Virus record (IMG/VR): IMGVR_UViG_3300002518_000001
Location: 39,031 to 98,698 of that record
Source of the DNA: a virus
DNA: 59,668 nt
Reading direction: 5' to 3' (one strand)
A program made the position numbers and the translations under genes. Position 1 is the stretch's first letter; the number at the start of each line of letters is the position of its first letter. Below, piece after piece: positions 24,959 to 46,706 of the stretch. The notes below the pieces were generated by a model, which searched no databases, was not told where the DNA came from, and saw only the letters and a list, made by a program, of their open reading frames with translations.

Positions 24959-27598
24959 ATGGGTTGGCGTCCTAAGTTTTCAGAGTTGGCTTTATATAAA
25001 GCAGGCGATGGGGATGGAGAGGCATTTAGCTTGGAGGCTCCGTCGCCGGAGGCCAAGCCGAGCGAGGCACAGCAGCCAGCCAGGCCGCCGACGTCGAAGT
25101 TGGCGAACCGCGAGACGCAACCAAGCACAGAGACGGTGGCCCCGCACGAGAACGCATCCAGCCCGCAGAGCAATTCGCTGTTGCAAGATTATCGGAGGCA
25201 GTGGCAAGAGATGGGTTTGGGGCGCCAGACCATCAGCCGTTTGCGCTTCGACGGCATCGAGCAGACAAGCCAGGGGGGAGACCCGTCCGAGGTGTGGGCT
25301 GATATTCATCGCCGAGCGGAGGGGATGGCCCACGATTACCAGATCCACGATATTGCTTCGAAGCATGATTTGGAGATGGAGCACCGCGATCATTTACTCC
25401 AGATCGACAGTTCGTTGGAGGGTGCGGGGAAGAATCGGGCCGAGCGTATCCGAGAGTTGCGCTCTATGGCGGAGGGGATGGCTCAACTACGAGACGGAAC
25501 AGCGGGTGTCGCGGATTGGGCAAGTGAGTATTTCTCTGGCTCTGAAGATATAGACGTGGATGAGTTGGACGACGGTCAGTTGGATGTCTTGCGCGGCGAG
25601 ATGATCGCGATGTCTCGCGGGTACGGTCCAGATTCGGTTCGGATGCTGTTGGAGCAGATGGCGGAAAGGATGCTCGACAAGAATCGTCATGGGGGAGAGG
25701 ACGACGAGGATGCAACGGGGTGGGGGAGTGATGGTGATGACGACGAGGAAAAGGTGGACCGGGAGGAGGCATTACGCCAGAGGTATCCCGACTTGAACCA
25801 TGCTCAGATGGAACAGTTGCTGTTTATGGAGTTCTCAAGAGAGAGAGATGGGAGCCCGATCGCGGACAGAGATGCCTTTTTGCAAAACATAGCGGGTACA
25901 TACAGAAGGTTCAACGAGAGGCAGTCGTGGACACCGACGGAGCGCGGTGAGAGAATTATCTCGGATATGATGTCGGAGCATAAGTTCTTGGGAGAGGAGG
26001 ATGCTCGACGGCTGGCATTGTGGGATGAGAGGTCTAAGCAAGCGGGTCGTTCGGAGCCTTGGCGGGATAGCCAGATTGCCTCGCGAGCCGAGAAGTTGCA
26101 CCTTCGGAGTTTTGGTGAAGAGGTTGGGATTGGGGAGGAGGATTTGACTCCCTATGAGTTAGAGGAGTTGTTTGACGAGTGGGAATTTGTTATTGGGGAA
26201 GGGCTTTCGCGAGAGGCAGCGGGACAGCAGGTACGAGAGAGCTTGGAAGCGATTCTTCCTCCGGAGAGACCGTCTTTTTCAGAGACTCAAGAAGATTGGA
26301 GGGATGGGACGGCGGACAGTCGAAGTCGCTTGGGGGCTCCGAATATTCCGCACCATGCTGTGCGTGAGTACGCCGACAGAGATCATTCGTGGATGCATCC
26401 GTTGTTGGTAGATGCGAATAATCCGAGGGATGCGATCAGGCAGTTGGTGCAGAATCCTGTGTTTGCCAGTCTGGCGACAGTTGGTGGGTTAGAGGCACAG
26501 TTGGAGGAGCGCTTTGAGTATGGTTCGTTTCATGCGGAAGGACGCCTCACGTTGGGGGGGAGGAGTGCAGGAACGATAACACGAGAGATCACGGATGCCG
26601 GAGGATATTTGGTTCTGGGAAATGAACTGTTGAAGGTGGAGCCTATTGCCAGGGGGCGGGATTATTCGTTGCAGTTTTATGCTCGGCAGGAAGATTTCTT
26701 GCGCGGGCTGACGGATCATTGGGATGACGATACCAAGAGGAAGACGAAGGTTTCTATTTCGACGGCATGGGTCGGCAAGTACCATTGGATGTCGCAAGGG
26801 TTCAGGTACTCCTCTCCAGGGGAGAGAAAGGATCATCTTCGAGGAATGATGGTGGCCTTGGATAGGTTGAGCCGCACGGGTGGGTATCTCGCTACAAGAG
26901 ATGTGTCTCGTGAAGATGCAGTGAGTGCGGTTGGCCAATCAAAGAGGTTGGGAGATATTGGTTTTTCGGACAGCGATTTGGCGGGAGTGCGGTCTCAGCT
27001 AGAGGAGTGCATCGACACAGAGGCCGAGCCGTGGGACGTCTTAGAGTTGGATGTCGGCCCTGATTTCTGGATGGGTGCCAGTGGGTCTGGATCTATTCAC
27101 ACAGCGGTGGCGGGTAATTTGATCAAGCTCTTGGCCTTGGCGGGCCAAGGTTGGTCTGGGGTGAAGCGGGTGCATGGGATGCGAGAGAAGGATGCGGAGG
27201 GTATTGCCTATGCCGACAGGCGTCGGCATGCGGCGGCAGAGCGTGCTCGTGAAGAGGGTCGTTCTTGGGGGTGGATGGGGCAGCGGGACAAGGCTGAAAA
27301 GGGCTTCGTTGTCAAATCAGGACGGGTTCCCGGTTATATGTATCATGATGAGTCTCCTCATAAAGATAGAGGCTTTCGAGTCCACCAAAGAGAACCGGAG
27401 CATATAGATATGAAGAGAAAAGACGATAAGTCCAGGCACAAAGAAGGAAACGACGGTTGGTTTTGGGAGGACTTGGGCGGCGAGGTAGTCCGGGCCAAAG
27501 AGCCAGATGACGGAATCGATCGAATGGTCTCGGATGACGACGCCGCAACAACAGCAGGATTCGGTGTTGTCAAGAAAGGCGATATGGACATGGACTAG
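24959..27598 (+). CDS. Polyvalent-like protein with degenerate GNAT-type domain
   Basis: 879 residues. ATG 24959 has GGAGG five bases upstream. The N-terminal 480 residues are acidic, helical and linker-rich. Residues 480-650 align with the protein at 46952-48187, including RDYSLQFYARQEDFLR against GYSSQFYARQEDYLR, and WMSQGFRYS against WMTQGYRFS. In that paralogue the segment carries a GNAT acetyl-CoA loop; here the RxxGxG part is eroded, so activity is doubtful. A second shared block (NLIKLLALAGQGWSGVKRVHG) follows. The protein ends AGFGVVKKGDMDMD. No metal-binding or kinase motif is seen. Confidence 0.8.
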   Translation: MGWRPKFSELALYKAGDGDGEAFSLEAPSPEAKPSEAQQPARPPTSKLANRETQPSTETVAPHENASSPQSNSLLQDYRRQWQEMGLGRQTISRLRFDGIEQTSQGGDPSEVWADIHRRAEGMAHDYQIHDIASKHDLEMEHRDHLLQIDSSLEGAGKNRAERIRELRSMAEGMAQLRDGTAGVADWASEYFSGSEDIDVDELDDGQLDVLRGEMIAMSRGYGPDSVRMLLEQMAERMLDKNRHGGEDDEDATGWGSDGDDDEEKVDREEALRQRYPDLNHAQMEQLLFMEFSRERDGSPIADRDAFLQNIAGTYRRFNERQSWTPTERGERIISDMMSEHKFLGEEDARRLALWDERSKQAGRSEPWRDSQIASRAEKLHLRSFGEEVGIGEEDLTPYELEELFDEWEFVIGEGLSREAAGQQVRESLEAILPPERPSFSETQEDWRDGTADSRSRLGAPNIPHHAVREYADRDHSWMHPLLVDANNPRDAIRQLVQNPVFASLATVGGLEAQLEERFEYGSFHAEGRLTLGGRSAGTITREITDAGGYLVLGNELLKVEPIARGRDYSLQFYARQEDFLRGLTDHWDDDTKRKTKVSISTAWVGKYHWMSQGFRYSSPGERKDHLRGMMVALDRLSRTGGYLATRDVSREDAVSAVGQSKRLGDIGFSDSDLAGVRSQLEECIDTEAEPWDVLELDVGPDFWMGASGSGSIHTAVAGNLIKLLALAGQGWSGVKRVHGMREKDAEGIAYADRRRHAAAERAREEGRSWGWMGQRDKAEKGFVVKSGRVPGYMYHDESPHKDRGFRVHQREPEHIDMKRKDDKSRHKEGNDGWFWEDLGGEVVRAKEPDDGIDRMVSDDDAATTAGFGVVKKGDMDMD

Positions 27599-27683
27599 GG
27601 GGCACCGGGGGCAGGTCAATTTTTTTTTGCTCCAAGGTGTCCAAACAATGAACCTCTTTGTGTATATGTAAGCGTGACAGATC

Positions 27684-27764
27684 GCCAAGGTGGTGGAATG
27701 GCAGACACGCCGGATTCAAAATCCGGTGCCTCACGGCGTGAGGGTTCGAATCCCTCTCTTGGCA
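27684..27764 (+). tRNA. tRNA-Leu(CAA)
   Basis: Complete cloverleaf: acceptor GCCAAGG with TCTTGGC, anticodon loop TTCAAAA reading CAA, a long class II variable arm and T arm GAGGGTTCGAATCCCTC. CCA is not encoded. It reads TTG, the leucine codon used most in this phage outside the scaffold and capsid genes, which explains its retention. Confidence 0.95.
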
Positions 27765-27769
27765 TAGTC

Positions 27770-27823
27770 AACACTCGACATTCTCGTGGAACGGGACTGT
27801 CCACAGACGGAGTGTCGAGTGTT
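27770..27823 (+). terminator. Long hairpin between tRNA genes
   Basis: An 11-bp perfect stem (AACACTCGACA with TGTCGAGTGTT) encloses a smaller hairpin (GTGGA with TCCAC) and is followed by TCTACTT. It may be a terminator or an RNase processing structure separating the first two tRNAs. Confidence 0.6.
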
Positions 27824-27844
27824 TCTACTTAGTGTTTCTATTTA

Positions 27845-27917
27845 GGGTGTGTAGCTGAATGGGTTAGCGGGAGTCTTTAAAACTCTGTCCAAGTGGGTTC
27901 AATTCCCACCATGCCCG
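27845..27917 (+). tRNA. tRNA with UUA anticodon (ochre-suppressor type)
   Basis: Cloverleaf: acceptor GGGTGTG with CATGCCC, D stem GCTG with TAGC, anticodon stem GGAGT with ACTCT around the loop CTTTAAA, and T arm GTGGGTTCAATTCCCAC. Position 33 is T and positions 34-36 read TTA, which pairs with the stop codon UAA. A lysine tRNA would need one more T. Many genes in the window end in TAA with tight overlaps to the next gene, so wholesale TAA recoding is unlikely. The charging amino acid is unknown. Confidence 0.72.
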
Positions 27918-27939
27918 TGAGAGCAATTATGTGGAAGTT

Positions 27940-28239
27940 ATGGCAAAAAACGCAGACGAGTTGAGTCAAGCTGAAAAGGATCATTTTTACGAATTCTTAG
28001 TTGCCCATACGGGTGACTTTCTATGCTCTTGTTGTGGCCGAGATAAATGGCAAATTATGCCTGTCCGAGCACATCTACCGTCTTTGAATTTCAGGGATGG
28101 TGTCGGAACACATATGGTCCCTGTATATATGGTTTATTGTTCGAACTGTGCCAAGTTCGAGACTTTTCACGCAGCGGTTGTGCGAGAGTGGGAAAGCCAG
28201 CTTCCTCCACCAGCAGAGACATCGAACTTGGACGTCTAG
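27940..28239 (+). CDS. Small zinc-ribbon protein
   Basis: 99 residues. Two cysteine knuckles (CSCCGRDKW and CSNCAKFE) about 40 residues apart form a treble-clef or zinc-ribbon fold, with a conserved-looking VPVYMVYCSNC strand between. The ATG at 27940 was chosen over an in-frame GTG nine bases earlier; neither has a strong ribosome binding site. It sits between tRNA genes. Nucleic-acid binding is likely, but the target is unknown. Confidence 0.7.
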   Translation: MAKNADELSQAEKDHFYEFLVAHTGDFLCSCCGRDKWQIMPVRAHLPSLNFRDGVGTHMVPVYMVYCSNCAKFETFHAAVVREWESQLPPPAETSNLDV

Positions 28240-28291
28240 CGAACGTTTGTGTTAGTGTTGATCTTTCAAAATAGAATAGAAAACATCTGAT

Positions 28292-28389
28292 GGATGGGTA
28301 GCTTATTTGGATAAAGCACTCTGTTTCTTTCAAACCGCCCGTTTCAAGGCCACAGAGAGATGTAGGTTCGACTCCTGCCCCATTCACCA
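28292..28389 (+). tRNA. tRNA-like gene with a 29-base anticodon loop
   Basis: Acceptor GGATGGG with CCCATTC, D stem GCTT with AAGC, T arm GTAGGTTCGACTCCTGC and an encoded CCA are all normal. The anticodon stem CTCTG with CAGAG is perfect but encloses 29 bases instead of 7. Either a 22-base insert must be removed, or the gene is not decoding. Identity cannot be assigned; different cut points give different anticodons. Confidence 0.65.
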
Positions 28390-28400
28390 TTTTATTTTTG

Positions 28401-28746
28401 AGTTTTGCGCTGTGGTTGGAAGACACAGCGGCTTCGCGGGATCGTAATGTTCGCGGGGTCGATAGAATCGAGGTCGTAAGCTCGATAGATTGGGTGGAGC
28501 CGAAAGGTCGTAATTCGTTTAGTTCCGTGGGGAGATGCCGCTCTTTAGAAAATTTACCCTTGGGAGGGTCATTTTCGAGAGGGACGCATGTTAAGCACCG
28601 TTCGCAAACGTAGAGCTTCGGCGATGAGCGAGAACGACTCGCCTCCAACGAGATTGTGGATCTCTCACGGGTGACCGCGAGAACCAAGTAAGAGCAATCG
28701 AGTTGGTTTCAATCTAGGATTGTGGGTTCGAACCCCACCAAAACTC
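28401..28746 (+). tRNA. Interrupted tRNA-like gene, about 270-base insert
   Basis: The 5' end AGTTTTG and the 3' CAAAACT pair as a 7-bp acceptor. A D arm (CTGT with ACAG, GG in the loop) follows the 5' end, and the T arm GTGGGTTCGAACCCCAC precedes the 3' end. Between them lie about 270 structured, GC-rich bases with several small hairpins and a GCCGAAAGGT-type element. No group I intron core (P, Q, R, S) is recognisable. An unrecognised intron, or a tRNA-capped structured RNA, are the alternatives. Confidence 0.5.
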
Positions 28747-28978
28747 ACTGTTTATCAAGTCGTGCCCTTAAGTGTTGGTGCAGACCGGAGCAAAATGGGA
28801 AAAGACTCCGTGCCCTTGAACAATATGCCCTTATTGGGGGTGCGGTGGGGCCTTTTCGAGAGAGAGGGTTCTTCCGTGCACATGGCCATGGCAGCTTGGC
28901 GGGAAACCGAACAAGTGTCTCATATTGTGGGGTGTTCCTAGAAACCGAAACACTCACGTACCTTGAAAGAGGTGCACC

Positions 28979-29046
28979 GGGATCATAGATCGGGAGATCG
29001 CTCGCAGATACGGCGGGAGGTGCAGGTTCGACTCCTGCTGGTTCCA
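28979..29046 (+). tRNA. Atypical short tRNA-like cloverleaf
   Basis: Acceptor GGGATCA with TGGTTCC (three G-U pairs), a tiny D arm GATC-GGGA-GATC, anticodon stem CTCGC with GCGGG, and T arm GCAGGTTCGACTCCTGC. The anticodon loop AGATACG lacks the U at position 33. The 230 bases upstream hold no gene I can support. This may be a decayed tRNA, or the 3' half of another interrupted one whose 5' half I did not find. Confidence 0.45.
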
Positions 29047-29101
29047 CCCTTCTTGGTGCTTTTACTCCTCCTGTTCCTGGGGTGATAACATCGAGAAGCT
29101 T

Positions 29102-29172
29102 GCTGCATTCGTCTAGTGGTAAGACGCCACCCTGTCACGGTGGAATCAGGAGTTCGATTCTCCTATGTGGCG
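29102..29172 (+). tRNA. tRNA-Asp(GUC)
   Basis: Acceptor GCTGCAT with ATGTGGC, D stem GTCT with AGAC, anticodon stem CCACC with GGTGG and loop CTGTCAC giving GUC, T arm AGGAGTTCGATTCTCCT. CCA is not encoded. Discriminator G, as usual for aspartate. Confidence 0.95.
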
Positions 29173-29177
29173 TGATT

Positions 29178-29250
29178 GCCAACGTAGCTCACTTGGTAGA
29201 GCAGTTGATTCGTAATCAACAGGTACGCGGTTCGATCCCGCGCGTTGGCT
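29178..29250 (+). tRNA. tRNA-Thr(CGU)
   Basis: Acceptor GCCAACG with CGTTGGC, D stem GCTC with GAGC, anticodon stem GTTGA with TCAAC and loop TTCGTAA giving CGU, T arm CGCGGTTCGATCCCGCG. Five bases after tRNA-Asp, so probably cotranscribed with it. Confidence 0.95.
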
Positions 29251-29340
29251 CTTTTCTTTCTCGCACTGTCGGGTCTGCTGGTGGTTTGTAGGTTATTTCG
29301 TCAGTGTCTTCTCGTCTGGTGTGGGAAAGAAATCTTTATG

Positions 29341-29355
29341 GTTCAGTCACTGAAC
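29341..29355. repeat. 15-bp palindrome, copy 10
   Basis: GTTCAGTCACTGAAC, perfect consensus, followed by TTTTT and five bases before the tRNA-Glu gene. Confidence 0.88.
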
Positions 29356-29360
29356 TTTTT

Positions 29361-29434
29361 GGCTCCATCGTCTAACTGGCCAGGATACCGGGCTTTCATC
29401 TCGGAAATCATGGGTTCGAGACCCTGTGGAGTCG
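29361..29434 (+). tRNA. tRNA-Glu(UUC)
   Basis: Acceptor GGCTCCA with TGGAGTC, anticodon stem CCGGG with CTCGG and loop CTTTCAT giving UUC. The T stem has only three clean pairs (GGG with CCC) plus mismatches, so it is weaker than in the other tRNAs. A hairpin (CTGTTC with GAACAG) follows directly and may aid 3' processing. Confidence 0.85.
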
Positions 29435-29542
29435 CTGTTCGGGAGACCGCAAGGTGCGGTAGGGAGAACAGAAAGCTTGTCTTTCACAATTACAGTTGTC
29501 CACTATTCCTGTGGGAGGGTTCCCCGCCTCTCGAATAATTTT

Positions 29543-29728
29543 GCAGAGTTATCCAAATTGGAAAAGGGAATCCCTGAACAGGGATGGTTCATCGAAGAGA
29601 TCGCTGATCGACGTGCCTCACTATGGGACAAAAGCGTTGTATTCGACGCATACAAACGGCAGCGAAATACCGGGGCAATCGTGGACGCACGAGATTGAGC
29701 TTTGGGGGTTCGAATCCCTCACTCTGCA
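29543..29728 (+). tRNA. Interrupted tRNA-like gene, GAA-type anticodon arm
   Basis: Acceptor GCAGAGT with ACTCTGC pairs perfectly. A D arm (TCC with GGA) and a hairpin ATCCC-TGAACA-GGGAT follow; if the loop is taken as CTGAACA the anticodon is GAA (Phe). The T arm GGGGGTTCGAATCCCTC comes only after about 110 further bases. The insert therefore lies in the variable region, not the anticodon loop. A short reading frame runs through it but overlaps the RNA and is not called. Confidence 0.5.
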
Positions 29729-29761
29729 TTCTGCATTCCCAAGAGATAGGAGATCCAGGAT

Positions 29762-30022
29762 ATGAAAGTTTATGTTGTGATGGTGGATGCTTATGGCATT
29801 GAAACGACTATCCAAGGCCCGGCTTTTCGCGATCCGGAGAAAGCGATTGAGAATGCTCGCGAGCTTGTGATGGATCATTGGGATGGAGAGCATGAGAGAG
29901 AGGTCCGGAGGGCTGACCCGTCGGAAGAGGAGCGTCTTTCGGCACAGGGATACCCCATCTTCTCTGAGACCTACAATTATGAGAACGACGCAGTGAAGGT
30001 TTTTGCTGTCGAGTTACAGTAA
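29762..30022 (+). CDS. Unidentified 86-residue protein
   Basis: Start preceded by GGAGATCCAGG. An acidic, compact alpha/beta protein beginning MKVYVVMVDAYGIE and ending with a beta strand KVFAVELQ; helical middle (PEKAIENARELVMDHWD). Small proteins of this type are common in phage accessory regions. Its stop overlaps the next start (TAATG), so the two are coupled. Confidence 0.82.
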   Translation: MKVYVVMVDAYGIETTIQGPAFRDPEKAIENARELVMDHWDGEHEREVRRADPSEEERLSAQGYPIFSETYNYENDAVKVFAVELQ

Positions 30023-30279
30023 TGGCCATCGACGACGCTATGTTGTGGCTCAAGGGTCTCACTTATTCCCAGCGAGACAAGGTCAAAGATTGGATTAAGG
30101 AGACTTTCGGCGGAGGCAGCTTGCCCATTTTAGTCGAGCAAGCATTCTTACACATGCCACCCGAAGTGATCGGCGGCGTATACCAAGGCATCCCAGAATT
30201 TGAAGAGAGAAGCCGGGAGTTCTCGGAGAGAGAGATTCTTCGGTTTAAAGAAGAACACTATCCACAAAAAACAAAATAG
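30022..30279 (+). CDS. Unidentified 85-residue protein
   Basis: Coupled to the preceding gene by a TAATG overlap. Helical and charged, with DKVKDWIKETFGGGSLPILVEQ near the middle and a C-terminal charged helix. No domain recognised. It ends 20 bases before the tmRNA, so the tmRNA may be processed from the same transcript. Confidence 0.82.
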   Translation: MAIDDAMLWLKGLTYSQRDKVKDWIKETFGGGSLPILVEQAFLHMPPEVIGGVYQGIPEFEERSREFSEREILRFKEEHYPQKTK

Positions 30280-30298
30280 GAGGAATGGTTTCCAGTGC

Positions 30299-30713
30299 GG
30301 GGGTGAACAGGTTTTCGATCATCCAAGTACGCTCATAGATAGCACGCCGAGGATTCAGGTGGCCTCGTAAAAAACCTGAAAACCAAGCAACTGCCAACAG
30401 CAATTACTACGCCGACAAGGTTTGGAGCTTCGGAGTCGCTTGCGACGTCGCTGCACCCTGCCACGTTAGCAACCAAGAAGTCGCCCTCTTCGCGTAAGAG
30501 GTCGCCCCTGCGTCACCTTTCCTGTGGGTGATGTGGGGAACTAAGCAGGATAGCGGTGGAGCAGTGGTCATGCCTGCCTGTGAAAAAAGACCGTTCGCCG
30601 GGACGTCCTTTTCTCTTTGTGGATGCCCGGATGAACTGAGAGCAAGGAGATAAGCGTGTAGAAGTCTGGAGTTGTCTTGAGGTGAGACGCGGGTTCGATT
30701 CCCGCCACCTCCA
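30299..30713 (+). ncRNA. ssrA: Transfer-messenger RNA (tmRNA)
   Basis: About 415 nt. The 5' GGGGGUG pairs with 3' CACCUCC and places the G3-U70 wobble (30301 with 30710) that alanyl-tRNA synthetase requires. The T arm is GCGGGTTCGATTCCCGC in the GAGACGCGGG context typical of tmRNA. PK1 is recognisable from GCCGAGG and GGCCTCGTAAAAAACCTG, nearly identical to the E. coli arrangement. The tag frame resumes at GCC 30393 (or GCA 30387), reads ANSNYYADKV and ends VALFA before TAA 30495-30497, 34 residues in all, which is long. CC follows the discriminator, but the terminal A is not encoded. tmRNA with SmpB frees stalled ribosomes and tags the product for proteolysis. Confidence 0.92.
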
Positions 30714-30994
30714 CCGGCACTGTGAGCGTTGGCTTGCTGTTTGGGTTCAAAGGCTCAGGCAGTGACCCACGCTGGAACTTGCGACAAAATTCATTTACTT
30801 TGACCCTGAACGTTTTTTTGTTGCGAGGTGTGTCTGAAATATGACCACAGTGCTTGTTACTTGTGCGGGAACACATGGGTGTTCAAGGGGTCCGAAAGAC
30901 CCTGGCCTCGTTGCAAGGTCAATACTCGTCGTGAAGAGCGGCGATAGTCCATGTAAGAGCATCGTGTGCAACCGCGATGTCGTTCCCGCTCCCT

Positions 30995-31064
30995 GTGGGT
31001 GTAGCTCAGTTGGTAGAGCGAGGGTCGCTCCCTGTCGGTGGTTCGAATCCACCTGCCCACACCA
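30995..31064 (+). tRNA. tRNA-like gene with a shortened anticodon arm
   Basis: Acceptor GTGGGTG with TGCCCAC, D arm GCTC with GAGC around AGTTGGTA, T arm GGTGGTTCGAATCCACC and an encoded CCA are all standard. The anticodon region is six bases short: a 4-bp stem AGGG with CCCT around a five-base loop TCGCT. A 10-base direct repeat, CGCTCCCTGT, occurs at 30987 and again inside this arm at 31026, as if the arm had been replaced by copying. The 280 bases between the tmRNA and this gene hold small hairpins but no gene I can support. Confidence 0.6.
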
Positions 31065-31156
31065 TTTGCTATGGAAGATGTTCGCGGGTTGTGTGTGCAG
31101 CCCACTTCCGGATATGCTATTCAAAACTTGGGTCTTCGCGAGGAGTAGTTTAGAGG

Positions 31157-31315
31157 ATGAAAGTTAGTGTCGATAGAGTGAAGAACGCTCTGAATAGATT
31201 GGAGATTGTTGCTCTCCGGGAAAGCAAGCGTCGTCGTCGCAAGTGGCTTGTGAGGACGTTTGTTATGGGTGTTCTCTTCTTTTTCTTTGTGTTAGTGGTA
31301 ACTCTTCTCCTGTAG
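31157..31315 (+). CDS. Small basic membrane protein
   Basis: 52 residues starting ATG 31157, with AGGAG 11 bases upstream. A charged N-terminal helix and RRRRKW patch precede a C-terminal transmembrane helix (FVMGVLFFFFVLVVTLLL), giving positive-inside topology. The last codons overlap the first ten bases of tRNA-Asn, which is unusual but possible. Holin-like or envelope-remodelling roles cannot be distinguished. Confidence 0.55.
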   Translation: MKVSVDRVKNALNRLEIVALRESKRRRRKWLVRTFVMGVLFFFFVLVVTLLL

Positions 31316-31378
31316 CTCGATTGGCAGAGCGGCGGACTGTTAATCCGTAGGTTGTGGGTTCGAGTCCCACCAGGAGAG
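31306..31378 (+). tRNA. tRNA-Asn(GUU)
   Basis: Acceptor TCTCCTG with CAGGAGA, D stem GCTC with GAGC, anticodon stem CGGAC with GTCCG-type pairing and loop TGTTAAT giving GUU, T arm GTGGGTTCGAGTCCCAC. Discriminator G. CCA not encoded. Closely resembles bacterial tRNA-Asn. Confidence 0.95.
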
Positions 31379-31473
31379 CAATTGCCCCTTTTGATCTGTT
31401 CGTTGGTCGGATTAAAGGGGGCATTTTTGTATATATGGTCAAAGCCTGTTTTGTCTTGAATAGGAGAGGAGCC

Positions 31474-32232
31474 ATGTGGATACGCGGGTGGGATGCCCTG
31501 ACTGATATAGAGAAAAAACTCTGTCGTATTTACTTTGAACGGAGAGCTTGGTGCTATGCTCCGCGTCATTCCCGGTACGGAAAGTATGGCCACAAGGGTG
31601 TCAAGTTCGCACGGAAGTGGCACAAGGTGGAGAACTTTCTGACTTGGGCGATCCCTCGATACAAAGCGGGGTGGTGGTTGATCCGCTTGGATTTATCCAA
31701 AGGGTATGGTCCAGAGAATTGCGATTTCATTGATCCGAAGCAGGCGATCCGGCAACGTCAAAACCACAAGCTCACGCAGTTGACGGCATTTGGTGTGTCG
31801 AAGTCACTGTCGGAGTGGGCAGAAGACGACCGAGTGATTCATCCTGCGACGACGCTATCGACACGAGTGGGTGCTTTGCGAAAAGCTCTGGCTCTGAGCT
31901 TGGACGATCCGATCGGCGTGGAAGATGCCGAGTACTTGCTGGTGGCCCCGCGTCGCCAAGGCGTCAGGTTGGACTTTCCGAGTCTTCGGGAGAGTGAGGC
32001 GTTTGCAAGCGAAGCGATATGGACTGCCGAGCAGGAAGCTTTGGCAGTGGAGAAGCACTTGCCGGTGGTTGGGATTGTGGCTCCGGAGCCACCGACTCCG
32101 GAGCCAGAGTTAGATCTTTCAGAACATCTGATGCGCGAACTCGATGTGATTGAGATTGCCTTGTCGGCGGTTGAGGAAGAGGGTCATCTTTACAGCGTGC
32201 TCCGAGGAGGTTTGGGGGTTCTCCTCAAGTAA
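31474..32232 (+). CDS. HNH-like phage DNA-binding protein
   Basis: 252 residues with AGGAGAGG upstream. Residues 25-95 follow a pattern common in phage HNH-type and related proteins: YGHKGVKFARKWHKVENFLTW, then IRLDLSKGYGPENCDFIDPKQAIRQRQN, equivalent to the LDRIDNNGnYePeNCRWAT box. The histidines expected for an active HNH site are not obvious. A following helical region (LTQLTAFGVSKSLSEWAEDDR) is HTH-like. Such proteins are often free-standing homing endonucleases or their decayed relatives. Its place next to the tRNA island fits, because such islands are homing targets. Confidence 0.7.
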   Translation: MWIRGWDALTDIEKKLCRIYFERRAWCYAPRHSRYGKYGHKGVKFARKWHKVENFLTWAIPRYKAGWWLIRLDLSKGYGPENCDFIDPKQAIRQRQNHKLTQLTAFGVSKSLSEWAEDDRVIHPATTLSTRVGALRKALALSLDDPIGVEDAEYLLVAPRRQGVRLDFPSLRESEAFASEAIWTAEQEALAVEKHLPVVGIVAPEPPTPEPELDLSEHLMRELDVIEIALSAVEEEGHLYSVLRGGLGVLLK

Positions 32233-41270: not shown

Positions 41271-41282
41271 GTGGGAAAGAAG

Positions 41283-44200
41283 ATGTCCGAGCCTGTTGAA
41301 ACAGTTGAGTCTCCTGATTTGAGTCCTTCTCCGGAAGCCCTTGATCAGCATGCATTTATGGAGCAGTACCACAAAGAGGATGGTCCGGGGGAGGGAGGGG
41401 AACATCAGGTGCGCGATCTGATGCGGGATAACTCTTGGGTGCGAGCAGCACATCTTCCGGTGAATCACAGCGAAGCAGGATGGAAGGCGGGTCGAAGAAT
41501 GCCAGAGGGCATTGATCCGGAGCACGGGGAGATGTGGGATGGTTTTCGGACAGCCAACAAACTCTCCGCTTTCCATGGAGAGGAGCCGATCCATCCAGAT
41601 GATTACAGGGAGATGTTTGAATCCGACAGGGAAGCACGGGATCAGCATCGTGAATCTGTTTCGGTCTCCGACGTTCTGGGGGGATTTGGCTTGGAGTTGG
41701 GGAGGAAGAGTAAGCTTGACTCCGAGCCCGTTCAAATGGTTTCGGAGGAGCTTGGTCGCCTCCAAGGGGCGGGGATGTCCTTGTCGTCTCCGGGTTATCG
41801 TGGGGCTATAAAGTTAGAGATGCAGTCACCAGACGACGATCCTGAGTATTGGGCGTATGGCCTGTTGAGAGGTGAGTACTTACCAAAGAAACACGCAATC
41901 CGCGTTGACCGCAGCGGTGAGTCTTTCGCACATGAGTGGTTTCACGCGGTAGATGGCGACTTGGGTTTGCCGAAAAGTTGGTGGCGCCGGGCAGCGCAAA
42001 AAGTAAAGACGGCTTTTGATTTTACCAAATTTGCGGCATCTAATGGTCAAGGAGATAGGCCAGAGTCGAGACACTTAGAGAGCTTTGTGAAGTTCCTTTC
42101 GACGATACCAACTGTGCAAGAGAGATGGGATCGGTCTTATTCGACGGAGTCAAGACCTGGGATGTTGGATTGGTTGCAAGGGGATATGCCGGAAGATCCT
42201 GGAAAGGACTTGGCCGAGTATATGTTGTCTCCGCACGAGGTGTGGGCACGATTCGGGGCACAGTTGGTCTCATACAGGTCGGCTGTTGCAGTTGCTCAAG
42301 GTAGATTGGCTCACCCGACCTTGTTGGCAAACCCATACAGTGAGTTGTTGAAAGATCCAGGTCATTGGACACATGAGGAGTTCTCTCGCATCGTGAAAGT
42401 ATGGGAGAGATCTCCTCTCTCGAAGATGTTGGAGTCGGGGATAAGAAAGGCTCTTGGGTTTGGGGTGTTCTTGAAGTCTGAGGGCGAGCAACTGTCGCTG
42501 CCGTTCTCTATACGGGCACACACTCCAGGTGGCAGTGCTCCGCCTGCTGTCTCGCCACCAACACCTGTTGCGGATTCACCAGGAAGTTCAGTCACTGAAC
42601 ATTCAGGGACGGGCGGTGCAGCAGTTTCCAACAGCACGACCACCGATTCCTCTCCTGAAGTACCAACGGAAATAGTCCCGCCAGAACTGACCGGGGAGTG
42701 GGAACAGGCGGGAGGTGGCGTGCGGCATCGCGTAAAGGGCTATGTTCCCGTTATGTCGCATCCAAAATACGAAGAGATCGATCTTCATCCAGGGGCTTCT
42801 GCGAACGCGAGAGCCCATGCTTATCGGAATCGACGGGTATTGGAGGAGCCGAAAGTTGTTGATCATATGCCAATCCATGAGTATGGACACAGCGGCCTAC
42901 ATCAGGAGCGGGGGTGGGACGATATACCGGGCCGATCCATACATGATCTGGAGGAGATTAACCGCCGGGGTGTGTCGATGCAGCACAGGTATCCATCGGT
43001 GGCATCGGTCGAGTTTGAGCCGGAAGAGATCTATTCGGCGATGGATGGTTTGCAAGCAGAATTCGAGCATCGATTCCAATCACAGCTTGGGGTGGTTAAT
43101 AAGCACAAATACAAGGCACAAGTTCCCGACCACGGATTTTCGTTTGCCAATGAAGAGTCTGTGCGGAGTCCGGCACAGGTGGCAGCGGCGACATCTGCTT
43201 CGCTGTGGACAGGCGGGAAGGTCGAATATGTGCGCAATCCGGACCTTTGGGACTCAAACGAACTCGACAAGGAGAGCGTGGGAGGTCCTGGTGGGTGGGA
43301 GGGAGAGAGGACGGAAGAGAATTACAGGATGGCGCATCGGGTGATGACACAGTTGGCACAACGTCAGGGTGACGAGACAGTGTCAGTTGCTCGTGGGATG
43401 GCCATTCCAAGTCATCACGTGCCAGGGTTTTTGGACAAGATGGACTTGGGAGACATCTCAAGCTGGACCAAGGGAAGTAATTATCAGCCCACTATGACTT
43501 TTGTGAGTCATGCCTTGGATCATGGGTTTTGGGACGAAAGTCACCTTGAGTCTTTTGAGCACCAGCTTCGGGAAGGGCTGGAGCAGTCGGGGAACTTTGA
43601 GGAAGGAAGCGACGAGGTAGATCAATTACTCGAAGAATATTTCGAGCACCACGGCGGGCCATTGGGGAACAATGGTGATGCTGACATTTTTGTTGAATTG
43701 GACATGGACAGTGAGGTGCGTCACTTCCGAGAGAGTAATCTTGGGCATTACTCTTCTGGCATGGCAGCAGTCGTGTTGTTGGCCGATACAAATATTGGAA
43801 CGACACTGAACCACATCTCAGCTTATCCGGGTGAGTGGGAGCATGTGCTCGGAGGAGAGGCCACGGTGCGCGACGTGCGAAGGATTCCCTCTTGGGATTC
43901 AGGTGAGTGGGACGAGGAAGATTTTTGGGACCATGATGAAGATGATTATGCCGCTCGCGAAGATCACCCAGCGTACGGAGACACAGGAGAGAAATTTACG
44001 GAATTCACGGGTGCCAATGACCATCTTGTAGGTGGTCTCGAAATTTACGTTATCAAAGTCGAAGTGGCGCCCAAGTCCGAAGTAAAGAAGGGTCTCTCTC
44101 AAAAGGAGAAGCCCAAGCCGAAGACGTTCCAAGATTGGGTGGATTGGAACTTGAATATAAATCTTCCTCGAAAAGGCAAGGAGGAGCCGAGCACGAACAA

Positions 44201-46706
44201 GGACGAGAGAAAAGAGCAGCCTGTTATCACCAAGGGACCGACTTGGTCGGGGCATAAGTTGCAAGGGCGTGCGAAGGTCGAGGGTATGGACATCTCGATC
44301 GAAAACGCTCGCGGCAGCGTTCGTTCCGGCGTGGACCCGGATGGGAACAAGTGGGAAACGAAGATGCGCGATCCGTATGGGTATATCCGTCGGACACTTG
44401 GCGTGGACGGTGACCACTTGGATTGTTTTTTGGGACCGCTTGCTCGGCGCCAAGCCGCAGGAGAGGATGTCGAGATCCCAAAGGTGTGGGTTGTTCATTC
44501 AAGAGACATTGAGACGGGTAAATACGACGAAGACAAGGTGATGTTGGGGTACAAGGGGAAGAGCGAGGCTGTTTCTGCATTTCGGCATCACTATACTGAC
44601 CCGGACCAGCACATAGGTCCGGTGTCCGAGTTCACGATGGAAGAGTTCAAGCATCGGATCTCCGACACGATGGAGAACCCGCGAAGATTGGGTCGTGGAC
44701 GCTGGGTTAGAAAGTCGGAAGATGAGTCGCGGGCTCCAAGCTCTCCCTTCTCTGCCAGTGATGCTTCGCAGAGGGCACCGTACCACGTCCAAGACGAGCC
44801 CTATAGAGCACCCCAGGCCCACGCACCGACCCAGGACGCAAACACGTCGTGGCAGCCCCATTGGGCTGCTGTGGCCCCCACCGCAGAAGCACCGACGGAA
44901 GACAACGTGCCCAAAGAGGAACTTGTCCCACAAGAAGAACCCCCTCACGCACCGTGGCGTCACATCAGCTTGCCCCACGAGGAATTATGGGAGGAGACGG
45001 CATACGGGGAGACGAACCAAGCTGAAGCGCAGCTTGATACAGGTGATATACAAGACGAGACGTTTGCACCCGGACCTGAATTCCCAGGACAAGACGACAA
45101 TCAGGCGTCCGACGACAACGAAGAGAGTGCTCCGGCAGACCCGAAGCCGACTCAAACGCCAGCGTCGAGGACTCGATTCGCTGCTCAAGAGGCTCGTGAG
45201 TCTCGTGCCAAAGCATTCAAAGAGCAGCACAAGGGCTACGAGATACCGAGCTTGACAGAACTTTTGCATCACAACGAAGAGTACGATCACGACATCCACG
45301 TGAGCCGTGGGTGGTTTGGCCAGACTTATGTGGACAACAAGTGGAGTCCAGAGGGAGGAAGTCAAGGTCAAGTACTCGTGAAGTACGGGATTATGTCAGA
45401 AGAGGAGCAAGCCATTGCCACGGAAGTGGGGGAGTTGGGGATTGGCCCGGTGGTTTTGGACTCCCACGCGGGTCTCGTAGACATCGATGCCAACAGTCCA
45501 GGTGTTCGGCAGCTAGAGAGCTACATCAGCCAAATGCGAGATCGTGGGATTGTCCGGGGCGACTCCGGGGCAGAGCACGAAGGGATGGGGTTGAACACAA
45601 ACCATCCGTTTGCTGTGCCGGACAGCGGGCGCCATAACCGACGAGCCCACTTGGGAGATGCCCTTGACGAGCACAGGGGCGAGTATGACTTCGACATCGA
45701 GGAGCGTCGGAATGAGCTTTTCGAAGGCACGTTGGGGTCTTTGGGCATTGAAGCATACAATGACGATGACCTGATGGCGGATTACGAGCCAAAGGATGTT
45801 TTGTATGAAGTGCAGGGGATGGAAGAGGATGACCCCGACGCTCCTTATAACTCAGACATCTATTGGGGAGAACCGGAGTTCGGTGCCTACTTGGCGGATG
45901 TGGTTCGCATGGTGGGTGGAGATGAGTATGCAGTCGAAGATGTGGAGCAGACGTACGAAGAGTTGATGGAGATGCAGCGCTTCGCGGACGGCGAAACGAA
46001 CGGAGACCTGGACGATCACGTGTTGGAGGCGGGCTTGGAGATGGGCTTGTACCACACGACGTCGATGCTTGAGCGAATCCGGAGCTTACTTAACATAAAC
46101 AAGCTCCCTGTTGAGAACTTCCAAATGGGCGCTCGCATGGCGATGGAGTACTTGGAAGGGTACGAGCCGGTGGATGGTCTCTTCGGGGATCAGTACAGTT
46201 TCGACTCCGGCGACGTGGAGCCAGAGACAGCGGACGACGCGGACAAGTGGGTGCGGGCGAGCTTGGGCATCTTGGATATGATGTCCATTTTTCACGGAGA
46301 GGGCCTGACCCACGGAGATTTACACACGTATAACGTGATGTGGGACGGAGAGGTGGGGCGTTTGATTGATTTCGGGATGGCGCAACGGTACGACCAAGAC
46401 TCATTGGATTGGGGAGCCTACCAGAACTTGCTTGTGAACTTACAGAAGGGTCTGAAGACGATGAGCATGCGGGGAGCAGCGGAGGCGGGCTTGTCGGGAG
46501 ACAGTCGGATTGCAATGGAAGCCGGGATGCACAATCTTAGACAAGAGGTCAATGAGCTTGCAGGCAAAGTCACGGATGCACTGACGGACGCTCCAAGAGG
46601 AAAGCAGCGGCTGACTATGTACTATGGCGACTTTGCCGAGATGGTTCGCGAGAAGACCTTGGATGTCTCCCAAGCGTACCATGAGCTACGATCGAAGTAT
46701 CTGTAA
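41283..46706 (+). CDS. Giant polyvalent protein: peptidase, ART, pyrophosphatase-like, kinase
   Basis: 1807 residues. Modules in order: zinc peptidase (H217-E-W-F-H221, in SFAHEWFHAVDGDLG) with a helical follower ending LGFGVFLKSEGE; linker holding a palindrome copy (SSVTE); ADP-ribosyltransferase with R704 (ARGMAIP), S726-S-W-T and E851-W-E853; an inorganic-pyrophosphatase-like domain (YGYIRRTLGVDGDHLDCFLG, D1042-D1044-D1047); a long acidic linker; and a protein-kinase fold with GWFGQTYV, VLVKYG, H1677-G-D-L-H-T-Y-N1684 and D1696-F-G. These are hallmarks of the polyvalent class. It may be packaged and injected, or act early; neither is shown. ATG 41283 follows AGGTGG; a GTG 12 bases earlier is possible. 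Confidence 0.9.
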   Translation: MSEPVETVESPDLSPSPEALDQHAFMEQYHKEDGPGEGGEHQVRDLMRDNSWVRAAHLPVNHSEAGWKAGRRMPEGIDPEHGEMWDGFRTANKLSAFHGEEPIHPDDYREMFESDREARDQHRESVSVSDVLGGFGLELGRKSKLDSEPVQMVSEELGRLQGAGMSLSSPGYRGAIKLEMQSPDDDPEYWAYGLLRGEYLPKKHAIRVDRSGESFAHEWFHAVDGDLGLPKSWWRRAAQKVKTAFDFTKFAASNGQGDRPESRHLESFVKFLSTIPTVQERWDRSYSTESRPGMLDWLQGDMPEDPGKDLAEYMLSPHEVWARFGAQLVSYRSAVAVAQGRLAHPTLLANPYSELLKDPGHWTHEEFSRIVKVWERSPLSKMLESGIRKALGFGVFLKSEGEQLSLPFSIRAHTPGGSAPPAVSPPTPVADSPGSSVTEHSGTGGAAVSNSTTTDSSPEVPTEIVPPELTGEWEQAGGGVRHRVKGYVPVMSHPKYEEIDLHPGASANARAHAYRNRRVLEEPKVVDHMPIHEYGHSGLHQERGWDDIPGRSIHDLEEINRRGVSMQHRYPSVASVEFEPEEIYSAMDGLQAEFEHRFQSQLGVVNKHKYKAQVPDHGFSFANEESVRSPAQVAAATSASLWTGGKVEYVRNPDLWDSNELDKESVGGPGGWEGERTEENYRMAHRVMTQLAQRQGDETVSVARGMAIPSHHVPGFLDKMDLGDISSWTKGSNYQPTMTFVSHALDHGFWDESHLESFEHQLREGLEQSGNFEEGSDEVDQLLEEYFEHHGGPLGNNGDADIFVELDMDSEVRHFRESNLGHYSSGMAAVVLLADTNIGTTLNHISAYPGEWEHVLGGEATVRDVRRIPSWDSGEWDEEDFWDHDEDDYAAREDHPAYGDTGEKFTEFTGANDHLVGGLEIYVIKVEVAPKSEVKKGLSQKEKPKPKTFQDWVDWNLNINLPRKGKEEPSTNKDERKEQPVITKGPTWSGHKLQGRAKVEGMDISIENARGSVRSGVDPDGNKWETKMRDPYGYIRRTLGVDGDHLDCFLGPLARRQAAGEDVEIPKVWVVHSRDIETGKYDEDKVMLGYKGKSEAVSAFRHHYTDPDQHIGPVSEFTMEEFKHRISDTMENPRRLGRGRWVRKSEDESRAPSSPFSASDASQRAPYHVQDEPYRAPQAHAPTQDANTSWQPHWAAVAPTAEAPTEDNVPKEELVPQEEPPHAPWRHISLPHEELWEETAYGETNQAEAQLDTGDIQDETFAPGPEFPGQDDNQASDDNEESAPADPKPTQTPASRTRFAAQEARESRAKAFKEQHKGYEIPSLTELLHHNEEYDHDIHVSRGWFGQTYVDNKWSPEGGSQGQVLVKYGIMSEEEQAIATEVGELGIGPVVLDSHAGLVDIDANSPGVRQLESYISQMRDRGIVRGDSGAEHEGMGLNTNHPFAVPDSGRHNRRAHLGDALDEHRGEYDFDIEERRNELFEGTLGSLGIEAYNDDDLMADYEPKDVLYEVQGMEEDDPDAPYNSDIYWGEPEFGAYLADVVRMVGGDEYAVEDVEQTYEELMEMQRFADGETNGDLDDHVLEAGLEMGLYHTTSMLERIRSLLNINKLPVENFQMGARMAMEYLEGYEPVDGLFGDQYSFDSGDVEPETADDADKWVRASLGILDMMSIFHGEGLTHGDLHTYNVMWDGEVGRLIDFGMAQRYDQDSLDWGAYQNLLVNLQKGLKTMSMRGAAEAGLSGDSRIAMEAGMHNLRQEVNELAGKVTDALTDAPRGKQRLTMYYGDFAEMVREKTLDVSQAYHELRSKYL
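42586..42600. repeat. 15-bp palindrome, copy 14 (coding)
   Basis: GTTCAGTCACTGAAC, perfect consensus, read SSVTEH in the linker between the peptidase and ADP-ribosyltransferase modules of the 1807-residue protein. Confidence 0.86.

Follow-up and report, generated by a model that had tools for sequence, protein, structure and literature searches.

In the extracts of the literature cited here, tmRNAs are known from 402 of 18,146 phage genomes (PMC9004378), and described carriers include mycobacteriophages Wildcat and Bxz1, phage Melnitz and huge phages (PMC4131195, PMC9004378, PMC7162821). The tmRNA of Wildcat is the most highly expressed lytic gene of that phage (PMC7474061). For Melnitz, whose tmRNA has the two-piece form, the authors proposed a function in the upkeep of hijacked machinery or in the degradation of host proteins (PMC9004378). 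The huge phages are described as also encoding SmpB. The standard bacterial ssrA tag ends in LAA, and the bacterial tags measured here (Planctomycetota) comprise 8-18 residues; one of them, ANSNYALAA (L283), opens with ANSNY. Mycoplasma ssrA tags comprise 26-27 residues. Extended tags of the Mycoplasma type end in AFA and are read by Lon (PMC3985003, PMC8138137, PMC9382460), and those of Mycoplasma and Mesoplasma show that the protease in charge can differ (PMC3985003, PMC9382460); extended mf-ssrA tags evade most, but not all, E. coli proteases (PMC9382460).

Here we describe a tmRNA gene in a 59,668-nucleotide stretch of an IMG/VR virus record (the window). As in the systems above the gene is carried by a phage, but the phage belongs to a different group and the tag is different: its predicted length is 34 residues, compared with 22 in the Wildcat-type phage EniyanLRS, and the gene is one-piece, unlike that of Melnitz. 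The tag shares the ANSNY opening of that Planctomycetota tag but is longer than the standard bacterial tag and ends in LFA. For an extended tag that ends in FA the closest precedent is that of Mycoplasma and Mesoplasma; the final residues are VALFA in this phage-encoded tag and NYAFA in Mycoplasma.

Anatomy and genomic setting of the tmRNA gene

The initial annotation placed a phage-encoded tmRNA at this locus, and a covariance search confirmed the assignment. The gene, at window positions 30299-30716 on the plus strand, matched the full Rfam model RF00023 (model positions 1-374) with 132.7 bits (E 1.1e-51; curated cut-off 47 bits), and was not called by ARAGORN at default settings. The RF00023 alignment and the sequence also bore out the tRNA-like features that had been noted. 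The 5' acceptor strand GGGGGUG (30299-30305, +) contains G3, the 3' acceptor strand CACCUCC (30706-30712, +) contains its partner U70, the T arm that precedes the latter (30689-30705, +) is canonical, and pseudoknot PK1 is complete (30346-30380, +; CGAGG/CCUCG and UUCAGGU/ACCUGAA). The gene end had been set at 30713, which is the discriminator base; the match runs on to 30716 through CCG (30714-30716), with the final A of CCA not encoded. A hairpin in the PK2 region (CCCC...GGGG; 30506-30538, +) folded better than all shuffles (z -4.51; 0 of 200 folded as well), and local folding gave a candidate helix in the PK4 region (GUUCGCCGGG...CCCGGAUGAAC; 30593-30636, +). The six bases that flank the gene on its 5' side (CAGUGC; 30293-30298, +) and on its 3' side (GCACUG; 30717-30722, +) are complementary and, as read from the sequence, likely form a precursor stem that lengthens the acceptor. 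A scan of positions 27400-31500 for sigma-70-like promoters found none, compared with a mean of 3.4 in shuffles.

The phage origin of the gene was likewise upheld by its setting. The source record comprises 104,653 bases (104.7 kb), may be incomplete, and encodes a portal protein, a major head protein, terminase, a replicative helicase, ribonucleotide reductase and tRNAs. The major head protein shares about 39-40% identity with its counterparts in SPO1-type Bacillus phages. Seven tRNA genes are called in the roughly 2.6 kb that precede the tmRNA gene, and two are called downstream. No match to SmpB was found in the whole record, in contrast to the huge phages, and a Pfam scan of 50 proteins (the products of 49 of the 70 called genes and one more protein) revealed no match with E of 0.001 or less to Lon, Clp, FtsH or SspB, or to an integrase. 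With no SmpB match in the record and no protease among the 50 scanned proteins, host factors would be needed, as far as these searches extend. The possibility that the locus is a remnant of an integration site was rejected, as the tmRNA gene is full-length. Two of the tRNA calls depended on the program used: a tRNA at 30995-31061 was found by Rfam (46.9 bits) and missed by ARAGORN, and one with the unusual anticodon AUA (28979-29048) was called by ARAGORN only and was absent from the Rfam matches. Elsewhere in the window, an 1811-residue protein (41271-46706) contains an inorganic pyrophosphatase domain (Pfam), and in PHROGs the stretch of the protein with this domain also hits families of minor head, DarB-like and endolysin proteins.

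The tag reading frame

The 34-codon tag frame that had been proposed was recovered unchanged. It encodes ANSNYYADKVWSFGVACDVAAPCHVSNQEVALFA at 30393-30494 (+) and is followed by a TAA stop at 30495-30497. The resume codon is GCC at 30393, and the hexamer immediately 5' of it, GCAACU (30387-30392, +), keeps the equivalent of A86 and has C at the U85 position. According to an extract of a study of the E. coli tmRNA, every change of A86 strongly lowered activity, and U85C was without adverse effect (PMC2481249). At the other end of the frame, the UAA stop lies in the helix 5 hairpin (CCUCUU-CGCGU-AAGAGG; 30485-30501, +), a 6-bp stem with a 5-nt loop that had only a modest folding advantage over shuffled sequences (z -1.46; 17 of 200). 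In 27.5% of shuffles, or about one in four by chance, the frame stayed open for 34 codons or more, so the case for the tag rests on where the frame starts and ends. At both ends the predicted frame is supported, by the retained A86 and by the position of the UAA in the helix 5 hairpin. Codon usage in the tag was intermediate between coding and non-coding, with a score that fell short of 90% of true gene windows and exceeded 97% of off-frame windows. RNA structure within the tag nucleotides was considered and rejected (z 0.05 compared with shuffles).

The C-terminus of the tag is LFA (EVALFA) and not LAA, and thus departs from the standard ClpXP-type signal. The tag is extended yet ends in EVALFA, and so differs from the Mycoplasma-type Lon signal, with its NYAFA ending. 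The ending had been noted to resemble host degrons in its small hydrophobic residues; VALFA is small and hydrophobic, and is not LAA.

A well-formed tRNA with anticodon UUA, which reads the UAA stop, was identified 2.4 kb upstream of the tmRNA gene (27845-27917; 52.2 bits in Rfam). Readthrough by suppressor tRNAs generates ribosomes that require tmRNA, as stated in an extract of PMC3985003. Readthrough of the tag stop by this tRNA was considered: UAA terminates 20 of the 70 called genes, and recoding of UAA is therefore unlikely. In Alcaligenes phage QDWS595, a tRNA call with a UUA anticodon (L251:984-1056) adjoins a permuted tmRNA.

Long tags in relatives and in other phages

To place the tag among its relatives, we searched with the terminase and found six loci, with a tmRNA over the cut-off in two of the six records. 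One relative (L049; 51% terminase identity, 143,941 bases) carries a full tmRNA (133.0 bits) with a 29-residue tag, ANDNKSHRSSGKVVSMADYRVEQPVAMAA, and the second (L055) an 82-base tmRNA match (64.6 bits) that is too short for a full gene. Of the 61 loci returned by a wider terminase search, 55 were new; among the 38 records searched, 2 carried a tmRNA over the cut-off, with tags of 8 and 10 residues. An MCP search returned 78 loci. One of 77 records was over the tmRNA cut-off, with a tag that looked ordinary by eye at about 10 residues, and the 78th record had no tmRNA over the cut-off. No relatives were found in a single-sequence MCP search of viral contigs. As far as these records go, many of them being fragmentary, the tmRNA gene is sporadic among relatives, the only relative to share the long tag is the close one whose tmRNA is complete, and the wider group has neither gene nor long tag as a stable trait.

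The lineage of this tmRNA contains two sequences, that of the window and that of the close relative with the 29-residue tag, labelled L054. The L054 tag opens with ANDN and ends in QPVAMAA, compared with ANSN and QEVALFA here, and its stop is UGA, in the loop of a hairpin with the same 6-bp and 5-nt geometry. Without the tag codons the genes measure 316 nt (window) and 325 nt (L054), so the extra gene length is due to the tag. In their conserved ends the two tmRNAs resembled each other no more than they resembled bacterial tmRNAs (Planctomycetota being the bacteria compared), which leaves common descent of the long tag without support. A K-V-x-S likeness between the two tags was dropped, as the best interior segment gave P = 0.98 compared with shuffles. 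A pattern search based on PK1 retrieved only the already known relative among phages, and its sole bacterial match was to a Planctomycetota MAG whose 10-residue tag is normal. A host assignment from this match was also dropped, since similarity in the conserved ends, with Planctomycetota as the only bacteria compared, singles out no origin. Analysis of isolate phages by blastn with the tmRNA returned 305 records (E up to 10), each with less than 80% of the query covered, and tblastn with the 34-residue tag gave no match.

We also examined how unusual the tag length is. In the best-scoring 30 of 99 Planctomycetota genomes, tags were 8-18 residues long (9 residues in 23 of the 30), and the most frequent length in an extract of the tmRNA database paper is 10 (PMC11915505); the view that the tag is much longer than usual was thus well founded. 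It had also been called unusual, which is correct for its length and its non-LAA ending but does not make it unique. Viral contigs were fetched by T-arm patterns as a non-random sample, and among the matches listed (at least 157 loci) ARAGORN called 53 one-piece genes. Tags of at least 20 residues were present in 10 of these 53, and a single 21-residue family accounted for five of the ten. ARAGORN made no call at 38 of the 157 loci listed, and eight of the 38, read by eye, belonged to the same family. Other long viral tags, each verified against the Rfam gene start, comprised 33 (L378), 28 (L373), 27 (L315), 26 (L316) and 21 (L321) residues. Among 11 hand-picked isolate-phage loci a tmRNA was found in 10, with tags of at least 20 residues in four (Mareelih 28, EniyanLRS 22, phi38:1 22, and S-CAM1 21 in the permuted form) and of 10-14 residues in the remaining six. 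Isolates reached through similarity to the Mareelih tag added Phabba (26), GMA2 (28), Settecandela (28) and Sixama (34). Long tags are rare without being unique to this phage: other phage tags reach 21-34 residues, and that of Gordonia phage Sixama also has 34. Among the matches listed in the open-licence literature, no phage paper addressed tag length in phage tmRNAs.

ARAGORN at default settings also missed the tmRNAs of GMA2, Settecandela and Sixama; because four such genes were missed, long-tag phage tmRNAs may be under-counted. The tmRNAs at L410:503-914, L411:495-905 and L412:501-922 lie without such annotation in two Gordonia phages, GMA2 and Sixama, and in one Mycobacterium phage, Settecandela. 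The GMA2 and Settecandela tags fall inside an annotated hypothetical protein, and the 34-residue Sixama tag repeats SEAFAN. A Pistol ribozyme match (56.8 bits) was found in GMA2 at L410:1224-1280.

The long-tag actinophages (Gordonia phages Mareelih, Sixama and GMA2; Mycobacterium phages Phabba and Settecandela) resemble the window phage in that their tmRNAs are one-piece and their tags are non-LAA and above the measured bacterial range. These tags contain a 14-residue core, V(T/S)(E/D)ADFA(E/K)IEAFAN, and the window tag does not. As a ratio without a significance test, taken over sequence pairs that are not independent, the pN/pS of this core was 0.08 in frame, compared with 2.12 and 1.34 when the other frames were read; the value is biased low, since similarity to the protein sequence of one of the five phages led to the other four and a protein pattern was used to excise the core, so that low pN is partly built in whereas synonymous divergence is not. 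The same untested ratio was 0.53 in frame, compared with 1.07 and 1.30 in the other frames, for the IMG/VR family with 21-residue tags, in which 13 loci, retrieved through their T arm and grouped on the basis of the tag, gave 10 distinct sequences. The tag type of this family, which consists of L005, L006, L008, L014, L016, L020, L025, L026, L030, L031, L036, L040 and L044, is GNTFAKLxALGLxxEExVxVA. A blastn search with L006 matched an isolate phage at the 3' end only.

The interiors of 11 representative long tags, picked after inspection, were more alike than 300 shuffles (P = 0.027 for the best pair and P = 0.003 for the sum of the top five). The window tag barely joined this likeness (lowest P = 0.034, with L006, in ten comparisons), and the lowest value for the L054 interior was P = 0.014 (with Mareelih, in ten comparisons). 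The actinophage core DFA(E/K)IEAFAN is absent from the 34-residue tag, and comparison of its interior with Mareelih gave P = 0.83. At the level of sequence, long tags look constrained as peptides in two other phage lineages, and the window tag has no demonstrable motif in common with either.

Proposed function of the extended tag

The most likely reading of the sequence is ribosome rescue with host SmpB combined with an extended, non-LAA degron. The tRNA-like domain is complete and includes G3-U70, the identity pair for alanine; PK1, the retained A86, an open 34-codon frame and a stop in helix 5 are also present. This is probably a working phage tmRNA that adds its 34-residue tag as some kind of degron. 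Judged by membership of the tmRNA family, host AlaRS would charge the RNA, host SmpB would bring it to stalled ribosomes, and the ribosome would move onto the tag frame, append alanine and 34 residues, and then be released. With less certainty, the tag would still act as a C-terminal degron, other than the usual LAA signal; we read it as a degron because its VALFA ending is small and hydrophobic. The long interior would extend the degron, as the Mycoplasma tag is extended for Lon, and for this reason a different protease or different kinetics might be expected. Such altered handling of the product is a tentative proposal by analogy.

The extra length could instead be slack, with host ClpXP reading the last residues of an ordinary degron and the interior lengthened by neutral drift. 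The small, hydrophobic ALFA ending, the dissimilar interiors of the window and L054 tags (P = 0.98) and the 8-10-residue tags of distant tmRNA-bearing relatives would all suit this account; however, the ending lacks LAA, and pN/pS suggests constraint on the interior both in the actinophages (0.08, in a set chosen by protein similarity and biased low) and in the 21-residue family (0.53). On balance, neutral drift seems somewhat doubtful. The tag might also be non-degradative or redirecting, so that truncated proteins are spared, sequestered or re-targeted and not fed to host proteases. In the five actinophages the long tags terminate in LV or SA and not LAA, and mf-ssrA extended tags evade most, not all, E. 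coli proteases (PMC9382460, in extract), in keeping with such a role. This is nevertheless unlikely, as both VALFA here and QPVAMAA in the relative are degron-like and the 50 scanned proteins included no phage protease or adaptor.

Decay offers another route to a long frame, if a captured host tmRNA had lost its original stop and the frame had run on. The 27.5% of shuffles in which a frame this long stays open and the sporadic occurrence of the gene among relatives are compatible with a relic, but the full-length RF00023 match at 132.7 bits, the stop within the helix 5 hairpin, the retention of a likely precursor stem and the intact, long-tagged tmRNA of the relative make it very unlikely. That the true tag is shorter or lies in another frame appears extremely improbable. 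Position 85 is C and not U, and ARAGORN at a lowered threshold suggested a different frame; that call, however, begins within PK1 and breaks the tRNA-like domain, and the A86 position, the Rfam alignment and helix 5 all fit the 34-codon frame.

The initial annotation suggested that tagged products could be rerouted, or ribosomes rescued upon cleavage of host messages, and as candidate roles these are reasonable guesses. In a broader and rather doubtful proposal, long tags would define a distinct functional class of phage tmRNA across several unrelated phages, with the interior as a recognition element that passes truncated proteins to a non-ClpXP partner and the window phage as a further lineage with a new interior. 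The broader pattern of long phage tags with apparently constrained interiors most deserves further study. The purpose of phage tags becomes testable through this tag, with its 34 residues and non-standard ending, and through the apparently constrained long tags of other phages.
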